DNA of 64,000 bases from Pseudomonadota bacterium (GTDB lineage Bacteria > Pseudomonadota > Gammaproteobacteria > Burkholderiales > Ferrovaceae), in the NCBI GenBank assembly GCA_021805725.1, contig JAJZEH010000045.1, positions 39,378-103,377 of the forward strand, read 5' to 3'. The notes beneath the pieces are model-generated. The model searched no databases. It saw only the letters and a program-made list of their open reading frames with translations, and was not told where the DNA came from. Shown here one piece after another: positions 47,478-58,429 of this stretch (within the stretch, counting starts at the first letter, position 1; each line of letters begins with the position of its first letter). Both the position numbers and the translations under genes were made by a program.

Positions 47478-49793
<2,316 letters not shown>

Positions 49794-49852
49794 GCATCCC
49801 GCCTCTTCCCCGCACTTAGCCCCTTCCCCATAGCAGTTCATTGACGCGTTCT

Positions 49853-49892
49853 CGCGCACGATGCCCCCTGGGCGCATCGTGCGCGTTTTTTC
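49853..49892 (+). terminator. Rho-independent terminator after purA
   Basis: A 12-bp perfect stem (49853-49864 with 49874-49885, CGCGCACGATGC paired to its complement) closes a 9-base loop. It is followed immediately by TTTTTT at 49886-49891. This is the best intrinsic terminator in the window. Confidence 0.92.
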
Positions 49893-49933
49893 GTGTGCGC
49901 CCGCTTATTTTTCTTCACAAATTGAAAGATTTC

Positions 49934-49961
49934 TTGACGCATTGCTGCAACGGGTTATAAT
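49934..49961 (+). promoter_or_regulatory. Strong sigma-70-type promoter for the redox operon
   Basis: TTGACG at 49934-49939 and a perfect TATAAT at 49956-49961 with a 16-base spacer. Transcription would start near 49968, leaving a leader of about 75 bases before the TlpA-like gene. No operator-like repeat is obvious in it. Confidence 0.75.
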
Positions 49962-50042
49962 GGGAAAAAATCCCATAAAAACCCGCTGAAGCGATTACCC
50001 AGCCCCGCAATGTGGCTCTGGGCGCTCAAGGAAAATCAAAAA

Positions 50043-50549
50043 ATGAAAAAAATATCATTATTTATCATGGCGATAGCATTTAATTTGGGGCTGCTTGCAC
50101 CGCTGGATGTGAGCGCGGCAGGAATAGCCGGGCCAGCGCCTGTATTTGAACTGGCCGGTATGGACGGCACCGTCAATCTGGCTCGGTACCATGGCAAGTT
50201 GGTCTATCTGGATTTCTGGGCTTCCTGGTGCGGACCTTGCAAGCAGTCCTTTCCCTGGATGAACGAGATGCAGGCGAAATACGGAAAGCAGGGGCTCCAG
50301 GTGATCGGTGTCAACCTTGACATGAAATCGGAGGATGGCCGCCGATTCCTTGCAGACACACCCGCGCAGTTCATTGTGGCCTTTGATCCCACGGGCGATA
50401 CCCCCCGAAAGTATCAGGTCAAGGGCATGCCCACCAGCGTGCTCATCGGCCGCGACGGCAAAATCATTTCGGAGCACATGGGCTTCAACCACAGGGATCG
50501 CGACGCGCTTGAGCGCACGATCGTCTCTGCCCTGGAGCAGCGCAATTGA
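50043..50549 (+). CDS. TlpA-like periplasmic thioredoxin
   Basis: An exported thiol:disulfide oxidoreductase. The 168-residue precursor starts MKKISLFIMAIAFNLGLL, a signal peptide with cleavage near VSAA. The thioredoxin fold carries the active site WCGPC (Cys63 and Cys66), preceded by LVYLDFWAS, and the cis-Pro motif KGMPTSVLI. The ATG at 50043 is preferred over an in-frame upstream GTG/ATG at 50010. It is the first gene after the promoter, its stop overlaps the DUF4266 start (TTGA), and DsbD three genes on could reduce it. Confidence 0.9.
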   Translation: MKKISLFIMAIAFNLGLLAPLDVSAAGIAGPAPVFELAGMDGTVNLARYHGKLVYLDFWASWCGPCKQSFPWMNEMQAKYGKQGLQVIGVNLDMKSEDGRRFLADTPAQFIVAFDPTGDTPRKYQVKGMPTSVLIGRDGKIISEHMGFNHRDRDALERTIVSALEQRN

Positions 50550-50785
50550 GTGCCCGCTGCACCCTTGCCTTTCCAGGTGGGCTGATATTTGCGCTTTTGA
50601 CCCTGCTCTCTGGATGCGCTTCAACCACTCCGGTGCAACCCTGGGAAAAGGGGAATTTGGCGCGCCCTGAAATGATGTTTGGGCAGGATCCCCTCGATAC
50701 GGCCTTTACCGAACACATTTATTCGAGCAAGGAGGGTGCCTCTGGCGGCGCTGGCGTAGGCGGTGGAGGTTGTGGATGCAATTGA
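50546..50785 (+). CDS. DUF4266 small lipoprotein
   Basis: A 79-residue lipoprotein of the DUF4266 family; function not established. The signal peptide ends in the lipobox LLSGC (Cys24). The mature part is only 56 residues: QPWEKGNLARPEM, then DPLDTAFTEHIYSSKEG and a Gly-rich tail ending GVGGGGCGCN with Cys76 and Cys78. The start is a TTG overlapping the TlpA stop; a GTG at 50550 is in another frame. Genes of this family are typically found beside DUF3570 barrels and ApbE, as here. The terminal Cys-Gly-Cys could bind metal, form a disulfide handled by TlpA, or carry a modification. Confidence 0.85.
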   Translation: MSARCTLAFPGGLIFALLTLLSGCASTTPVQPWEKGNLARPEMMFGQDPLDTAFTEHIYSSKEGASGGAGVGGGGCGCN

Positions 50786-51951
50786 GGAAATTGAAGCAGG
50801 TGCGCCTTCTCTCAAAGCCTGCCAGGGTGCAAACGAACAATGCCACAGGTCCGGCGATATTGCTCGCTGCAATGAGCCTGATGTCCCTAAAGTCCGCCGT
50901 GGCGGAGATCGCTCCTGATCGCGGTCTCATGAGCCTGCGCTACCTCGACTATCAAGATAGCCAGCCAGGTGAAAACAGGATTCATGTGGGCGCCACCTCG
51001 GCCATGGTCATGGTGCCTCTGGCGGGTGAATGGGCAGTGACGGGTACCTATACCACGGACTCCATCTCGGGCGCTTCACCGCGTTATTACACCTATGACA
51101 GCAACGGCAGGTTTCCCAAGATGCATGATTTGCGTCGTGCCGAGGACGTCTCGCTGACGCGGTATTTTTCGCAAGGTACGGCCACCGTGGGCGCTTCGTA
51201 TTCCAAGGAATCGGATTACATTTCCCAAGGGTTGTCTGCACAGGGCACGCTTTCCACCGAGGACAAGAATACCACCTTCAATTTTGGAACGGCCGTCTCC
51301 AATGACGAAATCAATCCGGTCAACAAGATCGTGATCGGTGAACGCAAGCATGTTCTGGAAGTGATCGCAGGCATGACCCAGATTTTCACACCCCAGGACG
51401 TTGCCCAGTTCGATCTGGGGCACTCCATGGGCGAAGGGTACTTTTCTGATCCCTACAAGATCTTCGATAATCGCCCCAGGTCACGCATCCATACCACCGC
51501 CCTGCTACGCTGGAACCATTATTTCTATGCCACGGAGGGCACGGGGCATCTGTCCTACCGGTATTACAGCGACACCTACGACATCCGCGCGCATACCCTG
51601 GACGCAGCCTACGATCAGCCCACCTCCTCGGGATGGACGCTGACCCCCGAGGTCCGGCTCTACTCGCAGTCGGCGGCATGGTTCTACCTCGAGCCCGATC
51701 CCGCGGCGCGACCCTACCCAACGTTTCCAAGCTATGGCACGACTTATTATTCGCTGGATCAGCGCCTGTCTTCCTTTGGAGCCATCACGCTAGGCCTGAG
51801 GGTCTCCAAAAAAATCGGCTCTGATTGGCTGGCTGACATCAAGTACGAGCAGTACGAACAGCGCAATAACTGGAGCGTGATGGGCAATAGCGTCCCGCTC
51901 GACCCATTCCGGGCACGCAGCATTCAATTTGGATTGTCTTGCCTGTTCTAG
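50776..51951 (+). CDS. DUF3570 outer-membrane beta-barrel protein
   Basis: A 391-residue protein with an N-terminal export signal that is unusually long in its polar part (hydrophobic core about 28-42, LLAAMSLMSL, cleavage near AVA). The mature chain is rich in alternating aromatic strands (YYTYDSNGR, ALLRWNHYFYATEGTGHLSYRY, LTPEVRLYSQSAAWFYL) and ends FGLSCLF, with a barrel-type C-terminal Phe. These features and the ISGASPRYYTYD motif fit the DUF3570 family. The ATG at 50776 has GGAGG at an ideal distance and overlaps the DUF4266 gene by 10 bases. Likely role: the outer-membrane component of this redox operon. Confidence 0.85.
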   Translation: MQLRKLKQVRLLSKPARVQTNNATGPAILLAAMSLMSLKSAVAEIAPDRGLMSLRYLDYQDSQPGENRIHVGATSAMVMVPLAGEWAVTGTYTTDSISGASPRYYTYDSNGRFPKMHDLRRAEDVSLTRYFSQGTATVGASYSKESDYISQGLSAQGTLSTEDKNTTFNFGTAVSNDEINPVNKIVIGERKHVLEVIAGMTQIFTPQDVAQFDLGHSMGEGYFSDPYKIFDNRPRSRIHTTALLRWNHYFYATEGTGHLSYRYYSDTYDIRAHTLDAAYDQPTSSGWTLTPEVRLYSQSAAWFYLEPDPAARPYPTFPSYGTTYYSLDQRLSSFGAITLGLRVSKKIGSDWLADIKYEQYEQRNNWSVMGNSVPLDPFRARSIQFGLSCLF

Positions 51952-51952
51952 G

Positions 51953-52873
51953 ATGAAGACCATCACCCGTCAATTCAAGGCCATGGCCAGTGCATGCGAG
52001 GTCACCTTCGCTGACGCCACGGAAGAGAAGCCTGATTCGAAGGCTCAACTTGCCATCGATGAAGTGCTGCGCATCGAGAAAAAATATTCCCGATACCTGA
52101 AGGACAGCGTGGTGTCCAGGATAAATGCAGCGGCGGGGATGGGCTGGGTGGCCTGTGACGGGGAGACACTGCAATTACTCCAATATGCCGATACCTTGTA
52201 CCGAACGAGCGGCGGATTGTTCGACATCACTTCGGGCATTTTGCGCAGGGCCTGGAACTTTAATACTCCCCATATCCCGGCACAGAATGAATTAAAGCCG
52301 TTGCTGGAAAAAATAGGCTGGCCCCTGGTGGACTTGAAAAACGAGAACATCCGGTTGCCAAAGCCTGGCATGGAAATCGACTTTGGTGGATTTGGGAAGG
52401 AATACGCCGCCGATCGCGCAGCCCAGATCCTTGTCGAAGCCGGCATCAGGCATGGTTACGTCAACCTGGGCGGAGACATCCGCGTAATCGGACCCAAGCC
52501 CGACAACAGCGCCTGGTCCTTCGGAATACAGCACCCCAGGGAGCACCGGATCATTGCCACCATCCCCATGTCCGGCGGCGCCTTGGCCACCAGTGGCGAC
52601 TACGAGCGCTTCTTTGAACTCGAGGGTCGCCGCTATTGCCACATCCTCAATCCCAAATCGGGTCGGCCGGCCTCCCATTGGCGTTCGGTAAGCGTGATGG
52701 CCCCGCTTGCCATTGCTGCTGGCAGCTGCACCACCATCGCCATGCTCAAGGAAAAAAGTGGCTTGGCTTTTCTGAACGAGACAGGTTTCTCCTATTTCGC
52801 CATCGATCAGCAAGGAAATACATTTCGCAATCCCCCCAATCCTTCCAAACCCACACCGGCTACCACAGCCTGA
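51953..52873 (+). CDS. apbE: ApbE-family FAD:protein FMN transferase
   Basis: ApbE proteins transfer FMN from FAD to a Ser/Thr of exported proteins. The 306-residue chain has the family motifs GGLFDITSG, EIDFGGFGKEYAADRA, GYVNLGGDIRV, ALATSGDYERFFE and YCHILNPKSGRPA. Two things are odd. There is no signal peptide: the ApbE domain begins almost at the first residue, so the enzyme may be cytoplasmic. The C-terminal block usually containing Ala-Asp-Ala (a metal ligand) reads IAAGSCTTIAM, with Gly at the Asp position by my alignment. The start follows the DUF3570 stop by one base. Confidence 0.88.
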   Translation: MKTITRQFKAMASACEVTFADATEEKPDSKAQLAIDEVLRIEKKYSRYLKDSVVSRINAAAGMGWVACDGETLQLLQYADTLYRTSGGLFDITSGILRRAWNFNTPHIPAQNELKPLLEKIGWPLVDLKNENIRLPKPGMEIDFGGFGKEYAADRAAQILVEAGIRHGYVNLGGDIRVIGPKPDNSAWSFGIQHPREHRIIATIPMSGGALATSGDYERFFELEGRRYCHILNPKSGRPASHWRSVSVMAPLAIAAGSCTTIAMLKEKSGLAFLNETGFSYFAIDQQGNTFRNPPNPSKPTPATTA

Positions 52874-52879
52874 TCGCTC

Positions 52880-54694
52880 ATGAAGAGACACATCTCATTG
52901 CTCCGCATTGCCCTGTTTGGTGTGATTCTGGCCCAGGCTTTTGGCAGTTTCACCCATGCCTCTGACGAATTTCTCAATCCGGAATCGGCTTTTCGATTGA
53001 GTGCCAGCTATACGCCAGAGCATCGGCTGCTGCTGCATTGGGCAATTGCGCCAGGATACAAGTTGTATCGGGATCGCATTCACCTGGCTGCCGTAGATGG
53101 TGCGGCGACCCTGACCGATCCCGTGCTACCCAAAGGACTGCGGGTTCACGACGACAATTTCGACCGGGATGTGGAGATTTACCACGGACAACTCGATGTG
53201 GTGACACCTTTGGATCTGCACGGCAAAGCCGCCCTCATGGCCGTGTCATACCAGGGCTGTGCCGAGGCCGGCTTATGCTACCCGCCCCTGGAGCAACGAT
53301 TTCGAGTGAACCCCGGACAGTTTGGCGCATTGGCCGCACTGGGAGCGGAGGGCGCCGTAGTCCATCCCGTCGCCCAGAGCAATGTTCCTGTCCAGGAAGA
53401 AACCACATCGGTGCGTCAGATTTTTGCCAGTGGCAGCCTGTGGACCATTGGATTTGCTTTTTTGGTCTTCGGCGTGTTGCTGTCCTTCACCCCTTGCGTA
53501 TTGCCGATGGTTCCCATTCTGGCCGCCATCGTGGTAGGCGAGGGTGAGGCAAGTCGCACGCGCAACTTTGCACTGGCGCTTTCCTACTGCCTGGGAATGG
53601 CGCTGGTGTATACGCTGTTTGGCATCGCTGCTGGATTGGCCGGAGAGGGGCTTGCCGGTGCTTTGCAAAAGCCCTGGGTGCTGCTGCTGTTTGCCTCGTT
53701 GCTGCTTGCCATGTCGCTGTCCCTGTTTGACGTGTACCAGTTGCAGATGCCCAGTGCCTTGCAGGGCGGCCTGAGCCATCTCAGCAATCGCCTGCAGGGC
53801 GGACGAACGCTGAGCGTATTCATTATGGGCGGGCTTTCCGCACTGATCGTGGGGCCCTGCGTGGCTGGACCACTCGCTGGCGCGCTGATTTACATCAGCC
53901 AAACCCATGATGTGGTGCTGGGGGGGATCGCCCTCTTTTCCATGGCCATGGGCATGAGCGTTCCCCTGCTGCTGATCGGGGTTTCTGCAGGGCGCTTCTT
54001 GCCTCGCGCCGGAGCCTGGATGGTTGCGGTCAAGCACACCTTCGGGTTGATGTTGATGGCGGTAGCACTCTGGATGATTCAGCCCATTCTGCCGGCACCG
54101 GCTGCCTTGGCGCTGTGGGGGGCCTTTGCCATCGTGTGTTCGGTGTTCCTGCGCGTATTCGATGGAATCTCCGAGCAGGCTTCGGTGGCGCGACGTTTTT
54201 CAAAATCACTGGGCATTCTGGTTTTCATCATTGGCACTTTTGAATTGGCTGGAGCCGTCGCGGGCGGGGACGATGTGCTGCGTCCCCTGGAAGGGTTCAA
54301 GGCGCTGGCCACCGGCAATACCGTGCCCGAAAAAGCGGCGCCGTTTCGCCGCATTACGTCACTTTCCCAACTGGACCAGGTCCTGGCCACGGCACAGAGC
54401 CCCGTCATGCTGGATTTCTATGCGGACTGGTGCACGTCGTGCAAGGAAATGGAGCGTTTCACGTTCAGCAATCCAGTGGTCGCAAGCCGCTTGCGCAGCA
54501 TTACGCTCGTACAGGTGGATGTCACGGCCAACAATGACGACGATCGCGCGCTGATGAAGAAGTTCAGCTTGTTTGGCCCGCCCGGGATCCTGTTTTTTGA
54601 TGCCACGGGAAGGGAGGTCCCCAACAGCAGGGTCATCGGGTATGAACAACCCGACAAATTCCTGGAACACCTGACCCATTACCTCGCACTTTGA
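52880..54694 (+). CDS. dsbD: Thiol:disulfide interchange protein DsbD
   Basis: Carries electrons from cytoplasmic thioredoxin across the inner membrane to periplasmic thiol proteins. The 604-residue precursor has a signal peptide (about 6-27). The alpha domain has Cys127 and Cys133 (YQGCAEAGLCYPP), the eight-helix beta domain has Cys206 (FTPCVLPMVPIL) and Cys327 (VGPCVAGPLAGAL), and the C-terminal thioredoxin gamma domain has Cys518/Cys521 (DWCTSCKEME). All six redox cysteines are present. It ends the operon that begins with the TlpA-like gene, and is the obvious reductant source for it. Confidence 0.95.
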   Translation: MKRHISLLRIALFGVILAQAFGSFTHASDEFLNPESAFRLSASYTPEHRLLLHWAIAPGYKLYRDRIHLAAVDGAATLTDPVLPKGLRVHDDNFDRDVEIYHGQLDVVTPLDLHGKAALMAVSYQGCAEAGLCYPPLEQRFRVNPGQFGALAALGAEGAVVHPVAQSNVPVQEETTSVRQIFASGSLWTIGFAFLVFGVLLSFTPCVLPMVPILAAIVVGEGEASRTRNFALALSYCLGMALVYTLFGIAAGLAGEGLAGALQKPWVLLLFASLLLAMSLSLFDVYQLQMPSALQGGLSHLSNRLQGGRTLSVFIMGGLSALIVGPCVAGPLAGALIYISQTHDVVLGGIALFSMAMGMSVPLLLIGVSAGRFLPRAGAWMVAVKHTFGLMLMAVALWMIQPILPAPAALALWGAFAIVCSVFLRVFDGISEQASVARRFSKSLGILVFIIGTFELAGAVAGGDDVLRPLEGFKALATGNTVPEKAAPFRRITSLSQLDQVLATAQSPVMLDFYADWCTSCKEMERFTFSNPVVASRLRSITLVQVDVTANNDDDRALMKKFSLFGPPGILFFDATGREVPNSRVIGYEQPDKFLEHLTHYLAL

Positions 54695-54729
54695 AGCGAA
54701 CTTTCATCTGATTTCATGAGGACACGATC

Positions 54730-55926
54730 ATGCCGACACTCCAACTCACTGGCGCTCAAAATCTTGCGAATATCCCTCCGGGAGGATTGACCTATACCAT
54801 CATCGGGAATGCCTCCTTCACCAACAACACGGTGGATTTCCTGCAGGGGCTACAGTCCAATTTCACCATCATTCAAAACCCTGACAAGTCAGTGACCGTG
54901 GATTCGGTTTCAGGGGCCAGCAGCCCATACAATTTGACGCTCAAGAATATCCAGTACCTCAAGTTCAACAGCGATACCGTCACTGTCAACCTGAATACCT
55001 ACTTTGGCACCGTGCCACCTTCGGTTGCGACCCTTATTGCCGATCAGTCTGCGGTCTACGGTATGCCCTTCAAGCTGGTGGTTCCCGCCAGCACCTTCAG
55101 TGATGCCAATGTGGGCGCAACCCCCAGCTACAGCGCTGCCCTGTCCAGTGGTGCTGCATTGCCTTCCTGGCTGACCTTTGACCCGGCCACCGACACGCTC
55201 AGCGGCACCCCACCCGGTGCAGGCACTTACAGCATCAGCATCAAGATGACGGATTCGCTCAACCTCAGCGTCACGGACACCTTCAATCTAACCGTCGGGG
55301 CAGCATTTAACGTTATTGGCAAACCCGGCAACAACACCTTTACCAGCAGTCCGGGAAATGACAGCTTCACGGGGGGCAGCGGGGGGGTCAATACGGTGGT
55401 TTATAACGGCAAGGCTGCCAACTTTGCCATTTCCCACACAGCCAGCGGATTGACGGTGCAGGACACCACCGGGGCCCAGGGTACGGACACGCTGACCAAC
55501 ATCCAGCGCATCAAGTTTGCGGATGTCTCCCTGGCCTTCGATACGGGAACGACGCAGTCTGGCGGACAAACTGCAGAAATACTGGGTGCTGCCTTTGGCG
55601 CGGCATCCATTGCCAAGAATCCAGCCTATGTGGGCATTGGACTGCAACTGTTCGACTCGGGCATGACCATGACGCAGGTGGCACAGCTGGCCATCAATAC
55701 GGGGGCAGTGAGTGCGCTGCATGACAACGCGTCCTTTGTAGAGGCAGTGTGGCAGAACGTGGTGGGGACGCCCATCGACCCCGCCAACCTTGCCACCTTC
55801 AAGGGATTGCTGGATAACGGCACTTTTACACAGGCAGGTCTTCTGGCGATGGCCGCTACCACCCAGGTCAATCAGGACCATATCGGCCTCGTAGGGCTCG
55901 CGCAGCACGGCGTCGCCTACGTCTGA
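54730..55926 (+). CDS. RTX/DUF4214-like exported protein with Ig-like domain
   Basis: A 398-residue protein without Cys, with very few charged residues and no Sec signal, the profile of a type I secretion substrate. Residues 33-90 (ending LKNIQYLKFNSDTVTVNL) and 220-271 (ending LTNIQRIKFADVSLAF) are related to each other. Between them lies an Ig-like putative cadherin/He_PIG module (about 96-190, LPSWLTFDPATDTLSGTPP). GNNTFTSSPGNDSFTGGSGG at 200-219 resembles a degenerate RTX calcium repeat. The C-terminal 110 residues resemble DUF4214-associated surface proteins. It lies 35 bases after dsbD with a GAGGA site. No type I exporter is nearby. Function unknown; an adhesin or surface-layer role is a guess. 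Confidence 0.7.
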   Translation: MPTLQLTGAQNLANIPPGGLTYTIIGNASFTNNTVDFLQGLQSNFTIIQNPDKSVTVDSVSGASSPYNLTLKNIQYLKFNSDTVTVNLNTYFGTVPPSVATLIADQSAVYGMPFKLVVPASTFSDANVGATPSYSAALSSGAALPSWLTFDPATDTLSGTPPGAGTYSISIKMTDSLNLSVTDTFNLTVGAAFNVIGKPGNNTFTSSPGNDSFTGGSGGVNTVVYNGKAANFAISHTASGLTVQDTTGAQGTDTLTNIQRIKFADVSLAFDTGTTQSGGQTAEILGAAFGAASIAKNPAYVGIGLQLFDSGMTMTQVAQLAINTGAVSALHDNASFVEAVWQNVVGTPIDPANLATFKGLLDNGTFTQAGLLAMAATTQVNQDHIGLVGLAQHGVAYV

Positions 55927-56077
55927 TCGGGAAAATTCTGCTCGATGAATAGCCCATGGCGCTACCCGCAAGGGTGGGGCCATGGTCATTGCTTGTTGAT
56001 AGTCGTGGCAAGCAGCAGGGGTAAGTGAGATACTAGCAACCTGCTGTAGGAGTTTTCTGCGCGACTAGGGCCGAGGG
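55927..56077. other. Non-coding stretch between the exported protein gene and tRNA-Leu
   Basis: This gap of about 150 bases holds a large hairpin (next entry) and a second weaker inverted repeat, CAGCAGG at 56013-56019 with CCTGCTG at 56040-56046. I see no ORF with coding character and no copy of the tRNA 3' end that would mark an attachment site. Confidence 0.5.
55954..55985 (+). terminator. Large GCAA-capped hairpin after the exported protein gene
   Basis: Arms of 14 bases (55954-55967 and 55972-55985) pair in 13 of 14 positions, one of them G-U, around a GCAA tetraloop (GNRA type). It lies 27 bases after the stop codon. No T-run follows, so it may be a non-canonical terminator, a 3' stabiliser, or part of a structured RNA. 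It would also fold if read from the other strand. Confidence 0.65.
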
Positions 56078-56164
56078 TGGTGCCGAGAAGAGGACTCGAA
56101 CCTCCACAGTGTTGCCACCGCCAGGACCTGAACCTGGTGCGTCTACCAATTCCGCCATCTCGGC
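56078..56164 (-). tRNA. tRNA-Leu (anticodon CAG)
   Basis: An 87-base class II tRNA on the minus strand. The acceptor arm GCCGAGA (56164-56158) pairs with TCTCGGC (56088-56082), followed by discriminator A and an encoded CCA (56080-56078). The D arm has GGCGGAATTGGTAGACGC. The anticodon stem CCAGG/CCTGG closes the loop TTCAGGT, giving CAG, which reads CUG codons. The long variable arm and the T loop GGTTCGAGTCC are intact. A tRNA-Leu beside rnr is common in betaproteobacteria. Confidence 0.95.
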
Positions 56165-56182
56165 ACGAAACTTACAAGACCG

Positions 56183-56199
56183 ACTGATCAGTGATCAGT
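56183..56199. promoter_or_regulatory. 17-bp inverted repeat between tRNA-Leu and rnr
   Basis: ACTGATCA, one G, then TGATCAGT: a perfect 8-base dyad in the 81-base divergent gap. A TACAAT (56199-56204) that could be the -10 of rnr begins at its last base. It looks like an operator or a small hairpin; no regulator is identified. Confidence 0.45.
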
Positions 56200-56245
56200 A
56201 CAATCGAGAACTTCGAATCTCAGAATTTTAAAGGATCCCCTTATT

Positions 56246-58429
56246 TTGTCAACCAAAAAAATTCCTTTGAGGCTTCAGGATCCATTTCTGGAGCGTGAAA
56301 AGGCGCAGTATCCCGATCCCTTGCCCAGCCGCGAATTCATTTTGCACCTGCTGGAACGCGAAGGCGTTCCCCTCGCGGTGGAGCAGTTGGAACGCCTCCT
56401 GACCATCCATGCAAACGAACGCGAACTGTTTTCGCGCCGGTTGCGCGCCATGGAACGCGAAGGCCAAATCATGCGCAATCGCAAGAATGCGCTCTGCCTG
56501 CCCGCCAAGCTCGATCTCATCAAGGCGCGCGTGGAAGGACACCCCGATGGGTTCGGCTTTGCCATTCGCGAGGATGGCGGCAGCGATATTTTCCTCGGAG
56601 CACGCGAAATGCAGCGGGTGCTGCATGGCGACCGGGTCATGGTGCGTACCACCGGCGTGGACCAGCGCGGACGCCCCGAAGGGGTCATCGTGGAGATTCT
56701 GGAGCACGTCAACACGCGTCTCGTGGCGCGTCTGTTCCAGGAGCAGGGCGTGTTGTTTGCCGTGGCCGAGAACAAGCGCATCAGCCAGGACATTCTGGTG
56801 GCGCCAGGACAGGAAGGCGGTGCAAGGCCAGGCCAGGTGGTCATGGTCGAGCTCGTAAAACAGCCCAGTCGCCAGGCCGAGCCCATCGCCAAGGTCGTGG
56901 AGATCGTGGGGAATTATGCCGATCCTGGCATGGAGGTGGAGATTGCCTTGCGCAAGCACGAACTGCCGCATGAGTTCTCTCCCGCGGCCCAGGCGCTGGC
57001 CGACAAGCTGCCCGACGTCGTGCGCAAGTCCGACCTCAAGGGGCGCGAGGATTTGCGCCAGCTGCCGCTGGTGACCATCGATGGCGAGACGGCCAAGGAT
57101 TTTGACGATGCGGTCTATGCCGAACCCCTTCCGGGCGGCGAATATCGTCTGGTGGTGGCCATTGCCGACGTCTCCCACTATGTCCGGCCCAAGGATGCGC
57201 TGGACCAGACCGCCTATGAGCGGGGCAACAGCGTGTACTTTCCACGCCGGGTCATTCCCATGCTGCCCGAGGCGTTGAGCAACGGGCTCTGCTCGCTCAA
57301 CCCGGCGGTGGACCGGCTGTGCATGGTCTGCGACATGACCATCTCGGCGCAGGGGCAAATCCGGATGTACAGGTTTTACCCTGCCGTCATGCACTCCCAT
57401 GCGCGCCTGACCTATACGGAAGTGGCTGCCATTCTGGAGCGCCCGGAGCGTGCCGACAGCGCTCGTCGCCCCATCGTGCCCCACCTGCAGCAACTGGAAG
57501 CCCTGTTCCGTATTTTTTTGAAGGCTCGCGCAGACCGCGGGGCCATTGATTTCGCCAGCGATGAAACGCGCATGGTGTTTGACGACCGCGGCAAGATTGA
57601 AACCATCCTGCCAGTAGAGCGCAATGACGCGCATCGCCTGATCGAGGAATGCATGCTGGCGGCCAACGTGAGTGCCGCGCATTTCCTGCAGGAGCATAAC
57701 CACGCCACGCTCTATCGCATCCATCCATCACCGGCACCCGAACGCCTGGAGATCGTGCGGGAGTTTCTGGGTGAACTGGGGCTGCATCTGCCAGGAGGCG
57801 ACGAGCCAAAGGCTGCAGACTATGCCAAGCTGATTCATAAAATTCAGGGTCGACCCGACCAGCGCCTGCTGGAGACCGTCCTGTTGCGCTCGTTGCAGCA
57901 GGCGCAGTACAGCCCTGAAAACGTGGGGCACTTCGGTCTTGCGTACGCCGCGTACGCCCATTTCACGTCGCCCATCCGGCGCTATCCCGACTTGCTGGTG
58001 CACCGGGCCATTCGTGCCGTTCTGGGCAATGAGGTCTACGCGCCGGGAGACTGGAAAGCCATCGGCGTGCATTGCTCCATGACCGAGCGTCGCGCCGATG
58101 AGGCCACGCGCGACGTGGAAGCCTGGCTGAAATGCTTCTTCATGAAGGACAAGGTGGGCAACGTGTTCAGCGGAACGGTCAGTTCCGTCACGGGCTTTGG
58201 GTTGTTTGTGGCGCTGGATGAGGTGTATGTGGAGGGACTGGTGCATATTTCAGAACTGGGCAGCGATTATTTCCAGTTCGATGCAACCCGCCATCAATTG
58301 CTGGGAGAGCGCACCGGGCAACGCTATCGCCTGGGGGATCGCATCGCCGTGCAATTGGTGCGGGTGGACATGGAAACCAACAAAATTGATTTCGTGCCGC
58401 AGTCCGTACCTCAATCCAGAAAGCGATAA
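56246..58429 (+). CDS. rnr: Ribonuclease R
   Basis: Processive 3'-5' exoribonuclease that degrades structured RNA and helps trans-translation. The 727-residue protein has the N-terminal winged-helix (PLPSREFILHLLEREGVPL), two cold-shock domains and the RNB catalytic domain with TIDGETAKDFDDAVY (metal-binding Asp cluster). HFTSPIRRYPDLLVHR and a C-terminal S1 domain (GNVFSGTVSSVTGFGLFVAL) follow. The start is a TTG at 56246 preceded by AAGGAT. It gives the family N-terminus (STKKIPLRLQDPFLEREKAQY), and no ATG is available nearby. Confidence 0.95.
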   Translation: MSTKKIPLRLQDPFLEREKAQYPDPLPSREFILHLLEREGVPLAVEQLERLLTIHANERELFSRRLRAMEREGQIMRNRKNALCLPAKLDLIKARVEGHPDGFGFAIREDGGSDIFLGAREMQRVLHGDRVMVRTTGVDQRGRPEGVIVEILEHVNTRLVARLFQEQGVLFAVAENKRISQDILVAPGQEGGARPGQVVMVELVKQPSRQAEPIAKVVEIVGNYADPGMEVEIALRKHELPHEFSPAAQALADKLPDVVRKSDLKGREDLRQLPLVTIDGETAKDFDDAVYAEPLPGGEYRLVVAIADVSHYVRPKDALDQTAYERGNSVYFPRRVIPMLPEALSNGLCSLNPAVDRLCMVCDMTISAQGQIRMYRFYPAVMHSHARLTYTEVAAILERPERADSARRPIVPHLQQLEALFRIFLKARADRGAIDFASDETRMVFDDRGKIETILPVERNDAHRLIEECMLAANVSAAHFLQEHNHATLYRIHPSPAPERLEIVREFLGELGLHLPGGDEPKAADYAKLIHKIQGRPDQRLLETVLLRSLQQAQYSPENVGHFGLAYAAYAHFTSPIRRYPDLLVHRAIRAVLGNEVYAPGDWKAIGVHCSMTERRADEATRDVEAWLKCFFMKDKVGNVFSGTVSSVTGFGLFVALDEVYVEGLVHISELGSDYFQFDATRHQLLGERTGQRYRLGDRIAVQLVRVDMETNKIDFVPQSVPQSRKR

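Follow-up and report, generated by a model that had tools for sequence, protein, structure and literature searches.

A 64,000-nucleotide stretch of contig JAJZEH010000045.1 from a bacterium of the Ferrovaceae (assembly GCA_021805725.1; hereafter the window) carries a cluster of five genes encoding a TlpA-like thioredoxin, a DUF4266 lipoprotein, a DUF3570 protein, an ApbE flavin transferase and DsbD, followed by a sixth gene whose product resembles type I secretion substrates. Our analysis points, with somewhat better than an even chance in our judgement, to an electron relay without haem that would lead from the cytosol to the surface of the cell. More tentatively, a little short of an even chance, we propose that a cytosolic transferase loads flavin mononucleotide (FMN) before its substrates leave the cell: a barrel that would pass unfolded through Sec and the barrel assembly machinery (BAM), and an RTX-type protein exported by type I secretion, together forming a surface chain of covalent flavins fed by thiols. 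The core cluster is already known as the 'DsbD system', a DsbD-type flavinylation cluster (Meheust et al. 2021, eLife; PMC8238504). What we add, as predictions, is cytosolic flavinylation and a secreted substrate.

Most ApbE proteins linked to DUF3570 form a signal-less group

The window ApbE starts MKTITRQFKAMASACEV, which leaves no room for a signal peptide, and no hydrophobic stretch precedes its domain; neither of the marks of a secreted ApbE, a signal peptide or a lipidation site, was seen. An earlier note on this DNA had ApbE acting in the envelope, a view that this N-terminus contradicts. Signal peptides were scored with our own hydrophobicity rule instead of SignalP. An ApbE counted as linked if a same-strand DUF3570 frame lay no more than 4 kb away, and sequences of 220 residues or more made up the distinct set. 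The rule scored 5/117 linked ApbEs as signal-bearing (5/100 distinct); two of these hits lie inside the domain (loci L031 and L064) and three are real (L147, L154 and L165), and 97 of the 100 distinct linked ApbEs are signal-less. Among unlinked ApbEs from such genomes, 13/17 were signal-bearing by the same rule. The four rule-negative ones were L148 (cut) and L166 (its anchor misplaced), both apparently signal-bearing on reading, and L159 and L172, which come from DUF3570 clusters. A slightly longer-reaching form of the rule found a signal in 104/107 TlpA relatives.

In a maximum-likelihood tree the 99 signal-less ApbEs (the 97 linked ones together with L159 and L172) fell on one side of a 100/100 branch. 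The two groups also differ at the Asp of the ADA.ST-type motif, which we take to be a metal ligand: this position is Gly in 99/99 signal-less ApbEs and Asp in 18/18 signal-bearing ones. The window protein reads AGSCTT at the motif and lacks the usual Asp. Counted by linkage, Gly was found in 97/100 linked ApbEs and Asp in 15/17 scored unlinked ones, L159 and L172 being the two Gly exceptions. For the signal-bearing form of the cluster, L147, L154 and L165 are the loci at which the presence of this Asp was confirmed.

The published survey discarded those FMN-binding and ApbE genes for which no signal peptide was predicted (PMC8238504). The passages of that paper that we consulted make no mention of a DUF3570-linked ApbE lacking a signal, of a barrel fold or of a sixth gene; its main text uses 'outer membrane' once, for siderophore transporters. 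In the same work the DUF3570 protein of Chlorobium luteolum was flavinylated by its own ApbE on co-expression, at two [S/T]GA[S/T] sites. This cognate pair had been cloned with truncated signals and was enough in Escherichia coli. Because the signal-truncated DUF3570, found mostly in the pellet, was flavinylated, an ApbE can flavinylate the unfolded barrel in the cytosol. An ApbE without a signal peptide that flavinylates inside the cell is also described for Klebsiella pneumoniae (review PMC12052999). In the window system the attachment of FMN probably precedes export and takes place in the cytosol.

Another form of the system was seen at loci L191-L195, from a search of the phylum of genome G003, where a signal-bearing ApbE occurs with barrels in which S-A-S or SSGAS repeats replace DxxSGAS.

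The expected flavinylation site lies at one end of the modelled DUF3570 barrel

An AlphaFold2 model of the window DUF3570, made with 106 relatives, showed a closed barrel of 16 strands (predicted local distance difference test, pLDDT, 86.9; predicted template modelling score, pTM, 0.82), and structure matches to outer-membrane barrels agreed with the barrel proposed earlier. By sequence, the only relatives among solved structures were two matches at E 0.2, taken as chance. A signal peptide-like start was scored in 128/143 DUF3570 frames by the longer-reaching hydrophobicity rule. On one side of the model, where both termini are found, the turns are short (2-5 residues), and the opposite side bears loops of up to 35 residues; because of the general rule for outer-membrane barrels, the short-turn side would be periplasmic.

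The motif column reads [ST]G[AS][ST] in 121/121 aligned DUF3570 sequences, window included. In the model the window motif closes strand 3 and starts the second outer loop, at the presumed extracellular end. A simple motif count gave a single site in the window and in 69/121 DUF3570 sequences. Some Chlorobi have an extra site in an insertion in the first outer loop; in Undibacterium and in other Chlorobi the second outer loop bears one, about 11 to 21 residues past the conserved site, and a few frames have a further motif elsewhere (e.g. L099, L117). The strict motif was absent in 6/149 distinct frames, with near variants at the same place; distant frames have S-A-S variants. Invariant residues lie in the outer part of the barrel in 28 of 35 cases, compared with 185/340 of all positions. 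The model thus lends fair support to a position of the FMN at the outer mouth of the barrel.

Two unusual forms of DUF3570 were noted. In one Chlorobiaceae genome an 832-residue frame with two DUF3570 domains, possibly a tandem double barrel, lies in a DUF3570 array (L081, L084; G003:C45:38098-40488). At L196, L197 and L198 the frames measure about 900-1000 residues, carry a long extension at the C-terminus and stand beside a DUF4266 ending CGCY, not CGCN; DUF3570 frames of similar size were also found in genomes G537, G703, G734, G774 and G794.

A sixth gene encodes a candidate secreted flavoprotein

The earlier note ended the operon at DsbD. Its five genes are real, but it stopped before a sixth gene that begins 35 bases further on, and no terminator-like site was found in 54500-56300. 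No signal peptide was seen on reading the N-terminus of the sixth protein. Roughly half of its length, with conservation in the C-terminal part, is common to proteins named serralysin or carrying PF00413/PF08548; its scores for Pfam RTX and DUF4214 are under the cut-offs. The absence of a Sec signal together with the serralysin-like C-terminal region agrees with a type I secretion substrate. A model of the protein (pLDDT 90.4, pTM 0.64) places its flavinylation-type motif in a loop between two strands, and Foldseek with the whole protein returned mostly Ig-/cadherin-like folds, presumably for the He_PIG part.

Blind clustering of neighbouring genes at 80 DUF3570 loci gave a top cluster of 34 loci that contained the sixth-gene relatives; the clustering used single linkage, and this cluster includes other RTX-type proteins. 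A search with an N-terminal domain profile, at E 1e-8 or better, recovered relatives in 27/80 loci. Twenty-four come next after ApbE, DsbD or DUF3570 in the same orientation, at -4 to 188 bases; two are divergent beside TlpA and one (L044) is upstream. The profile was built from 23 aligned domains, 27-77% identical to that of the window, with L052, L060 and L063 as near copies. D58, A63 and S64 are their sole invariant residues, among rows that were picked partly by a motif-like pattern, with L003 added by hand and L007, L011, L044, L075 and the pattern-less rows dropped.

At the motif site, [ST]GA[ST] was found in 20 of 28 sequences (the 27 loci and the window). In a less biased set, 120 proteins collected by whole-protein similarity, the motif was present in 14/20 N-terminal copies, the window's own included, and in 13/15 of those with E under 1e-20. 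It was found in none of 32 weak RTX-type matches away from DUF3570, a count that includes duplicates and several rows gapped at the site. A chance origin of the motif was considered and rejected: shuffling gives 1.7/120 motif-bearing proteins against the 15 seen, and internal repeats of the same domain had the motif in 0/49 cases.

The HlyD family, a mark of type I exporters, scored over its cut-off in 15/16 related genomes, compared with 1/14 controls; it was under the cut-off in the nearest relative, G001 (1.9 Mb, fragmented), and no HlyD match lies within the window. Type I substrates do not pass freely through the periplasm, and therefore only a cytosolic ApbE could modify the sixth protein if it leaves by that path, a requirement that ties the signal-less ApbE and the sixth gene together. 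The sixth protein is a candidate ApbE substrate, with FMN predicted on Ser64. No paper joining 'flavinylation' and 'type I secretion' turned up in a literature search that had most subscription papers outside it, and in the part of its results that we examined no title or abstract opening dealt with a secreted RTX flavinylation substrate.

A looser version of the sixth gene may exist in Chlorobi, where secreted-type proteins near DUF3570 have VTGAS or VSGAS at a seemingly equivalent place (L018, L033, L037 and L040). Past the sixth gene, the window carries a tRNA-Leu (cag) at 56078-56164 on the minus strand; a promoter match for that strand, TTGACA-16-TAAAAT, lies at 56252-56225.

DUF4266 is a lipoprotein with a terminal cysteine pair

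As the earlier note had seen, the small lipoprotein is Cys-ended: a CGCN end after a Gly-rich stretch was present in 120 of 121 DUF4266 sequences, the window's included. The longer-reaching hydrophobicity rule found a signal in 92/102 DUF4266 frames, and a lipobox pattern was seen in 89/102, in which A, S, T or G follows the Cys and D never does. Under the Lol rule the residue following the lipoprotein Cys steers outer-membrane sorting, and because it is never D the sequences suit placement of DUF4266 in the outer membrane.

We also looked for an FMN site on DUF4266, and rejected it. The window protein has no D-x-x-[ST]-G-A-[ST], and the nearest candidate, KEGAS, misses both the Asp and the S/T. 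The covalent FMN that had been suggested for the lipoprotein is expected instead on DUF3570, which has the motif in every aligned sequence and is the ApbE substrate shown in C. luteolum (PMC8238504).

Layout and co-occurrence of the cluster

The five core genes lie on the plus strand between 50043 and 54694, and all matched their Pfam families (Table 1). In order, their four junctions are two overlaps (4 and 10 bases) and two gaps (1 and 6 bases). The arrangement agrees with the earlier description of five joined genes behind a near-consensus promoter. Terminator-like stems lie at 49870-49900, upstream of the promoter-like site. A scan of both strands of 49000-55500 with a threshold of 9/12 found no other match as good as 11/12. 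Since shuffled regions average 3.2 matches, a promoter match as such is no better than chance; the case for a promoter-like site is its 11/12 score and intergenic position. The TlpA-like protein scores under NCBIfam cut-offs, and ApbE (PF02424) has a PDB relative, 1vrm (E 2.6e-41).

Table 1. Features of the cluster in the window, with start codons as preferred from sequence reading and from relatives
Feature	Position	Strand	Start codon	Basis
Promoter-like TTGACG-16-TATAAT	49934-49961	+		11/12 consensus match only
TlpA/ResA-like thioredoxin, signal peptide, WCGPC	50043-50549	+	ATG (longest frame from 50010)	Pfam Redoxin 1.1e-20
DUF4266 lipoprotein (LSGC then Ala), Gly-rich tail, CGCN end	50546-50785	+	TTG	Pfam 2.7e-24
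DUF3570, predicted 16-strand outer-membrane barrel, expected ApbE substrate	50776-51951	+	ATG	Pfam 4.3e-56; model; C. luteolum (PMC8238504)
Flavinylation motif DSISGAS, residues 95-101 from ATG 50776, FMN expected on Ser101	51058-51078	+		Alignment and model
ApbE flavin transferase, no evident signal peptide, Gly for the usually conserved Asp	51953-52873	+	ATG	Pfam 5e-76
DsbD, full-length, transmembrane thiol reductant carrier	52880-54694	+	ATG	Pfam DsbD_TM 2.5e-89
Sixth gene, 398 residues: motif domain, He_PIG, serralysin-like tail; signal-less, type I secretion-type	54730-55926	+		Pfam, similarity, reading
DSVSGAS, a flavinylation-type motif (sixth protein, residues 58-64)	54901-54921	+		Alignment

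The window cluster has the features of the published one: all five families together, an [S/T]GA[S/T] site in DUF3570 and a C-terminal CXC in DUF4266. The survey lists 285 DsbD flavinylation clusters, with DUF3570 in 227 and DUF4266 in 221 (PMC8238504). That paper shows flavinylation of DUF3570 and proposes electron transfer for the cluster, leaving its end function uncertain, so the DUF4266/DUF3570 pair was not wholly without an assigned role, contrary to the earlier note. By name, DUF3570 or DUF4266 turned up in no other paper within the reach of our literature search.

We scanned one genome per species and confirmed 370 DUF3570 relatives. Around the best 80 of these 370 loci, several of which are clipped by contig ends, DUF4266 was found in 73, TlpA in 65, ApbE in 58, DsbD in 40 and all five in 36. 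DUF3570 occurred in 71/274 genomes of one class and 71/247 of one phylum. In that class DUF4266 was present in 66 genomes and not detected in 5 of the 71 with DUF3570; all 66 also had DUF3570 (17 expected if independent). The co-occurrence analysis suggested with the earlier prediction therefore shows families that keep together outside this genome. Among plasmids there were just three Vibrio records, at 23.9% identity. No natural DUF4266-DUF3570 fusion was noticed in the search rows, the long DUF4266 frames of one search apart.

Several variations in gene content were observed. At five loci (L015, L028, L032, L042 and L074) DUF4266, DUF3570, the sixth gene and TlpA form a compact group with no ApbE recognised nearby, the DUF4266 of L028 lying past the contig end. 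In 10/80 loci (e.g. L077:4828-7023) a neighbouring gene encodes, by eye, a protein that begins with a signal peptide and a cytochrome c motif (CxxCH), with repeats behind them, and that would be a haem protein adjoining an otherwise haem-free system. A gene resembling sigma-70-family factors of the extracytoplasmic function (ECF) type, again by eye, lies within 6 kb of the barrel gene in 15/80 loci (e.g. L061:2055-2852) and is a possible regulator.

Discussion

We propose the following relay. Cytosolic ApbE would put FMN on Ser101 of the DUF3570 precursor and probably on Ser64 of the sixth protein. The barrel would then take the Sec route and enter the outer membrane through BAM, already bearing its flavin, and the sixth protein would leave by type I secretion. 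With cytosolic thioredoxin as the donor, DsbD would supply the TlpA-like protein with reducing equivalents, a step established at the level of the family; to this extent the envelope redox device of the earlier note, with its reductant path from DsbD to TlpA, is upheld. TlpA may reduce the C-terminal CGC of DUF4266, whose Gly-rich tail would act as a swinging arm into the barrel, and the dithiol may reduce the FMN at the outer mouth. From there electrons would pass to an acceptor outside the cell, with or without the secreted flavoprotein as a carrier in between; ferric iron is the first candidate acceptor.

Several points weigh against this proposal. No earlier case of a chain that crosses Sec and BAM with FMN attached is known to us. 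Three of the 100 linked ApbEs have a real signal peptide, the L194 and L195 regions look signal-bearing too, and a further unlinked ApbE, L207 (G002:C6), has no clear signal in the stretch read. The ApbE tree is rooted at its midpoint and drew long-branch warnings among the signal-bearing rows. The topology of the barrel is deduced from loop lengths and the general barrel rule. The arm mechanism, the acceptor and the direction of electron flow are proposals as well. The sixth gene is accessory: strong matches occur in 1/274, 1/300 and 3/136 genomes, compared with DUF3570 in 71, 31 and 25. All of the strong matches (G002, G822, G824 and G882) lie beside DUF3570, but these or apparent near copies of them sit in the profile alignment. 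The invariance of D58, A63 and S64 is partly built in by the choice of rows; several dropped rows have SGAS or TGAS with no Asp (L043 and the Chlorobi L018, L033, L037 and L040). Finally, 8/28 sixth-gene sequences have the variants SSAS, SAAS, GAAS or AGAS, in which the Gly or the preceding Ser/Thr is changed. Because a Gly-to-Ala change in the motif leaves about 50% flavinylation, and Asp loss has a minor effect (PMC12052999), such variants are not disqualified.

The role may also be uptake. In an assimilatory metal reductase the same relay would reduce ferric (or cupric) chelates for import and have no respiratory outlet. The VIT1 ferrous iron transporter, present in 25 clusters (PMC8238504), speaks for this, but 25 are few among several hundred published clusters, and we regard it as unlikely, though worth keeping in view. 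Less credible still is a division of labour in which the cytosolic ApbE serves the sixth protein only, and another, secreted ApbE flavinylates the barrel in the periplasm. Two or more ApbEs were indeed found in 17/20 genomes searched, and most of the unlinked ones are signal-bearing, 13/17 by rule and two more apparently so on reading. However, 53/80 loci lack the sixth gene as scored and their ApbEs are signal-less; four of the 20 genomes, whose completeness is not known, have linked signal-less ApbEs only (one each in G390, G397 and G493, two in G386); and the cognate C. luteolum pair needed no second transferase in E. coli. We consider this division of labour improbable, and keep to a single cytosolic ApbE for both substrates.

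Two further alternatives concern the thiols, and we give both a slim chance. The flow could be reversed, with the flavin drawing electrons from the lipoprotein thiols to oxygen, as a sulfhydryl-oxidase-like disulfide generator in the outer membrane. ERV enzymes do feed their flavin by flexible shuttle cysteines, in Erv2 a C-terminal CXC (PMC4019985). Here, though, the flavin is paired with DsbD and a TlpA-like protein, reductant suppliers by family, and Pfam found no DsbA- or DsbB-type gene in the window's cluster. Lastly, DsbD and TlpA might merely keep the lipoprotein cysteines free for a metal or other ligand, the flavin having a separate function; this follows the metal-handling idea of the earlier note, and the CGC tail could bind copper or zinc, but DUF4266 never occurs without DUF3570 in the 274 genomes (66/66), so that the lipoprotein keeps company with the flavin barrel.

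Multihaem cytochromes are the usual explanation for the export of electrons across the outer membrane. If the proposed relay is right, thiols and covalent flavin would provide a simpler route, and one built on a common barrel family. If FMN is also loaded before export, as we propose more tentatively, ApbE would gain a substrate class not known before, events would run in a new order, the cofactor coming first and Sec export second, and the conduit at the surface would be haem-free. Exported substrates for an ApbE that has no signal raise the question of whether Sec and BAM can carry an FMN-bearing chain, and a secreted protein flavinylated by a cytosolic ApbE is a bold prediction that is easily tested.

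Mtr-type conduits consist of an outer-membrane barrel and cytochromes and pass electrons to outside acceptors. The proposed relay would be like them in leading electrons out through an outer-membrane barrel, a likeness of mechanism only, but it is haem-free, with the barrel FMN and the thiol lipoprotein in place of the cytochromes. Erv2-type thiol oxidases, which carry non-covalent flavin adenine dinucleotide, belong to another family and have the opposite presumed direction; again the likeness is one of mechanism, with no kinship claimed. It lies in the C-terminal CXC that shuttles between a thiol partner and a flavin (PMC4019985). The ApbE of K. pneumoniae, like that of the window, is signal-less and acts inside the cell, but its substrate is a soluble fumarate reductase (PMC12052999), whereas here exported substrates are proposed. 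With the published DsbD-type cluster (PMC8238504) the window shares its families, the DsbD-driven idea and DUF3570 as the flavin carrier; it differs in having one flavinylation site in DUF3570, where C. luteolum has two.

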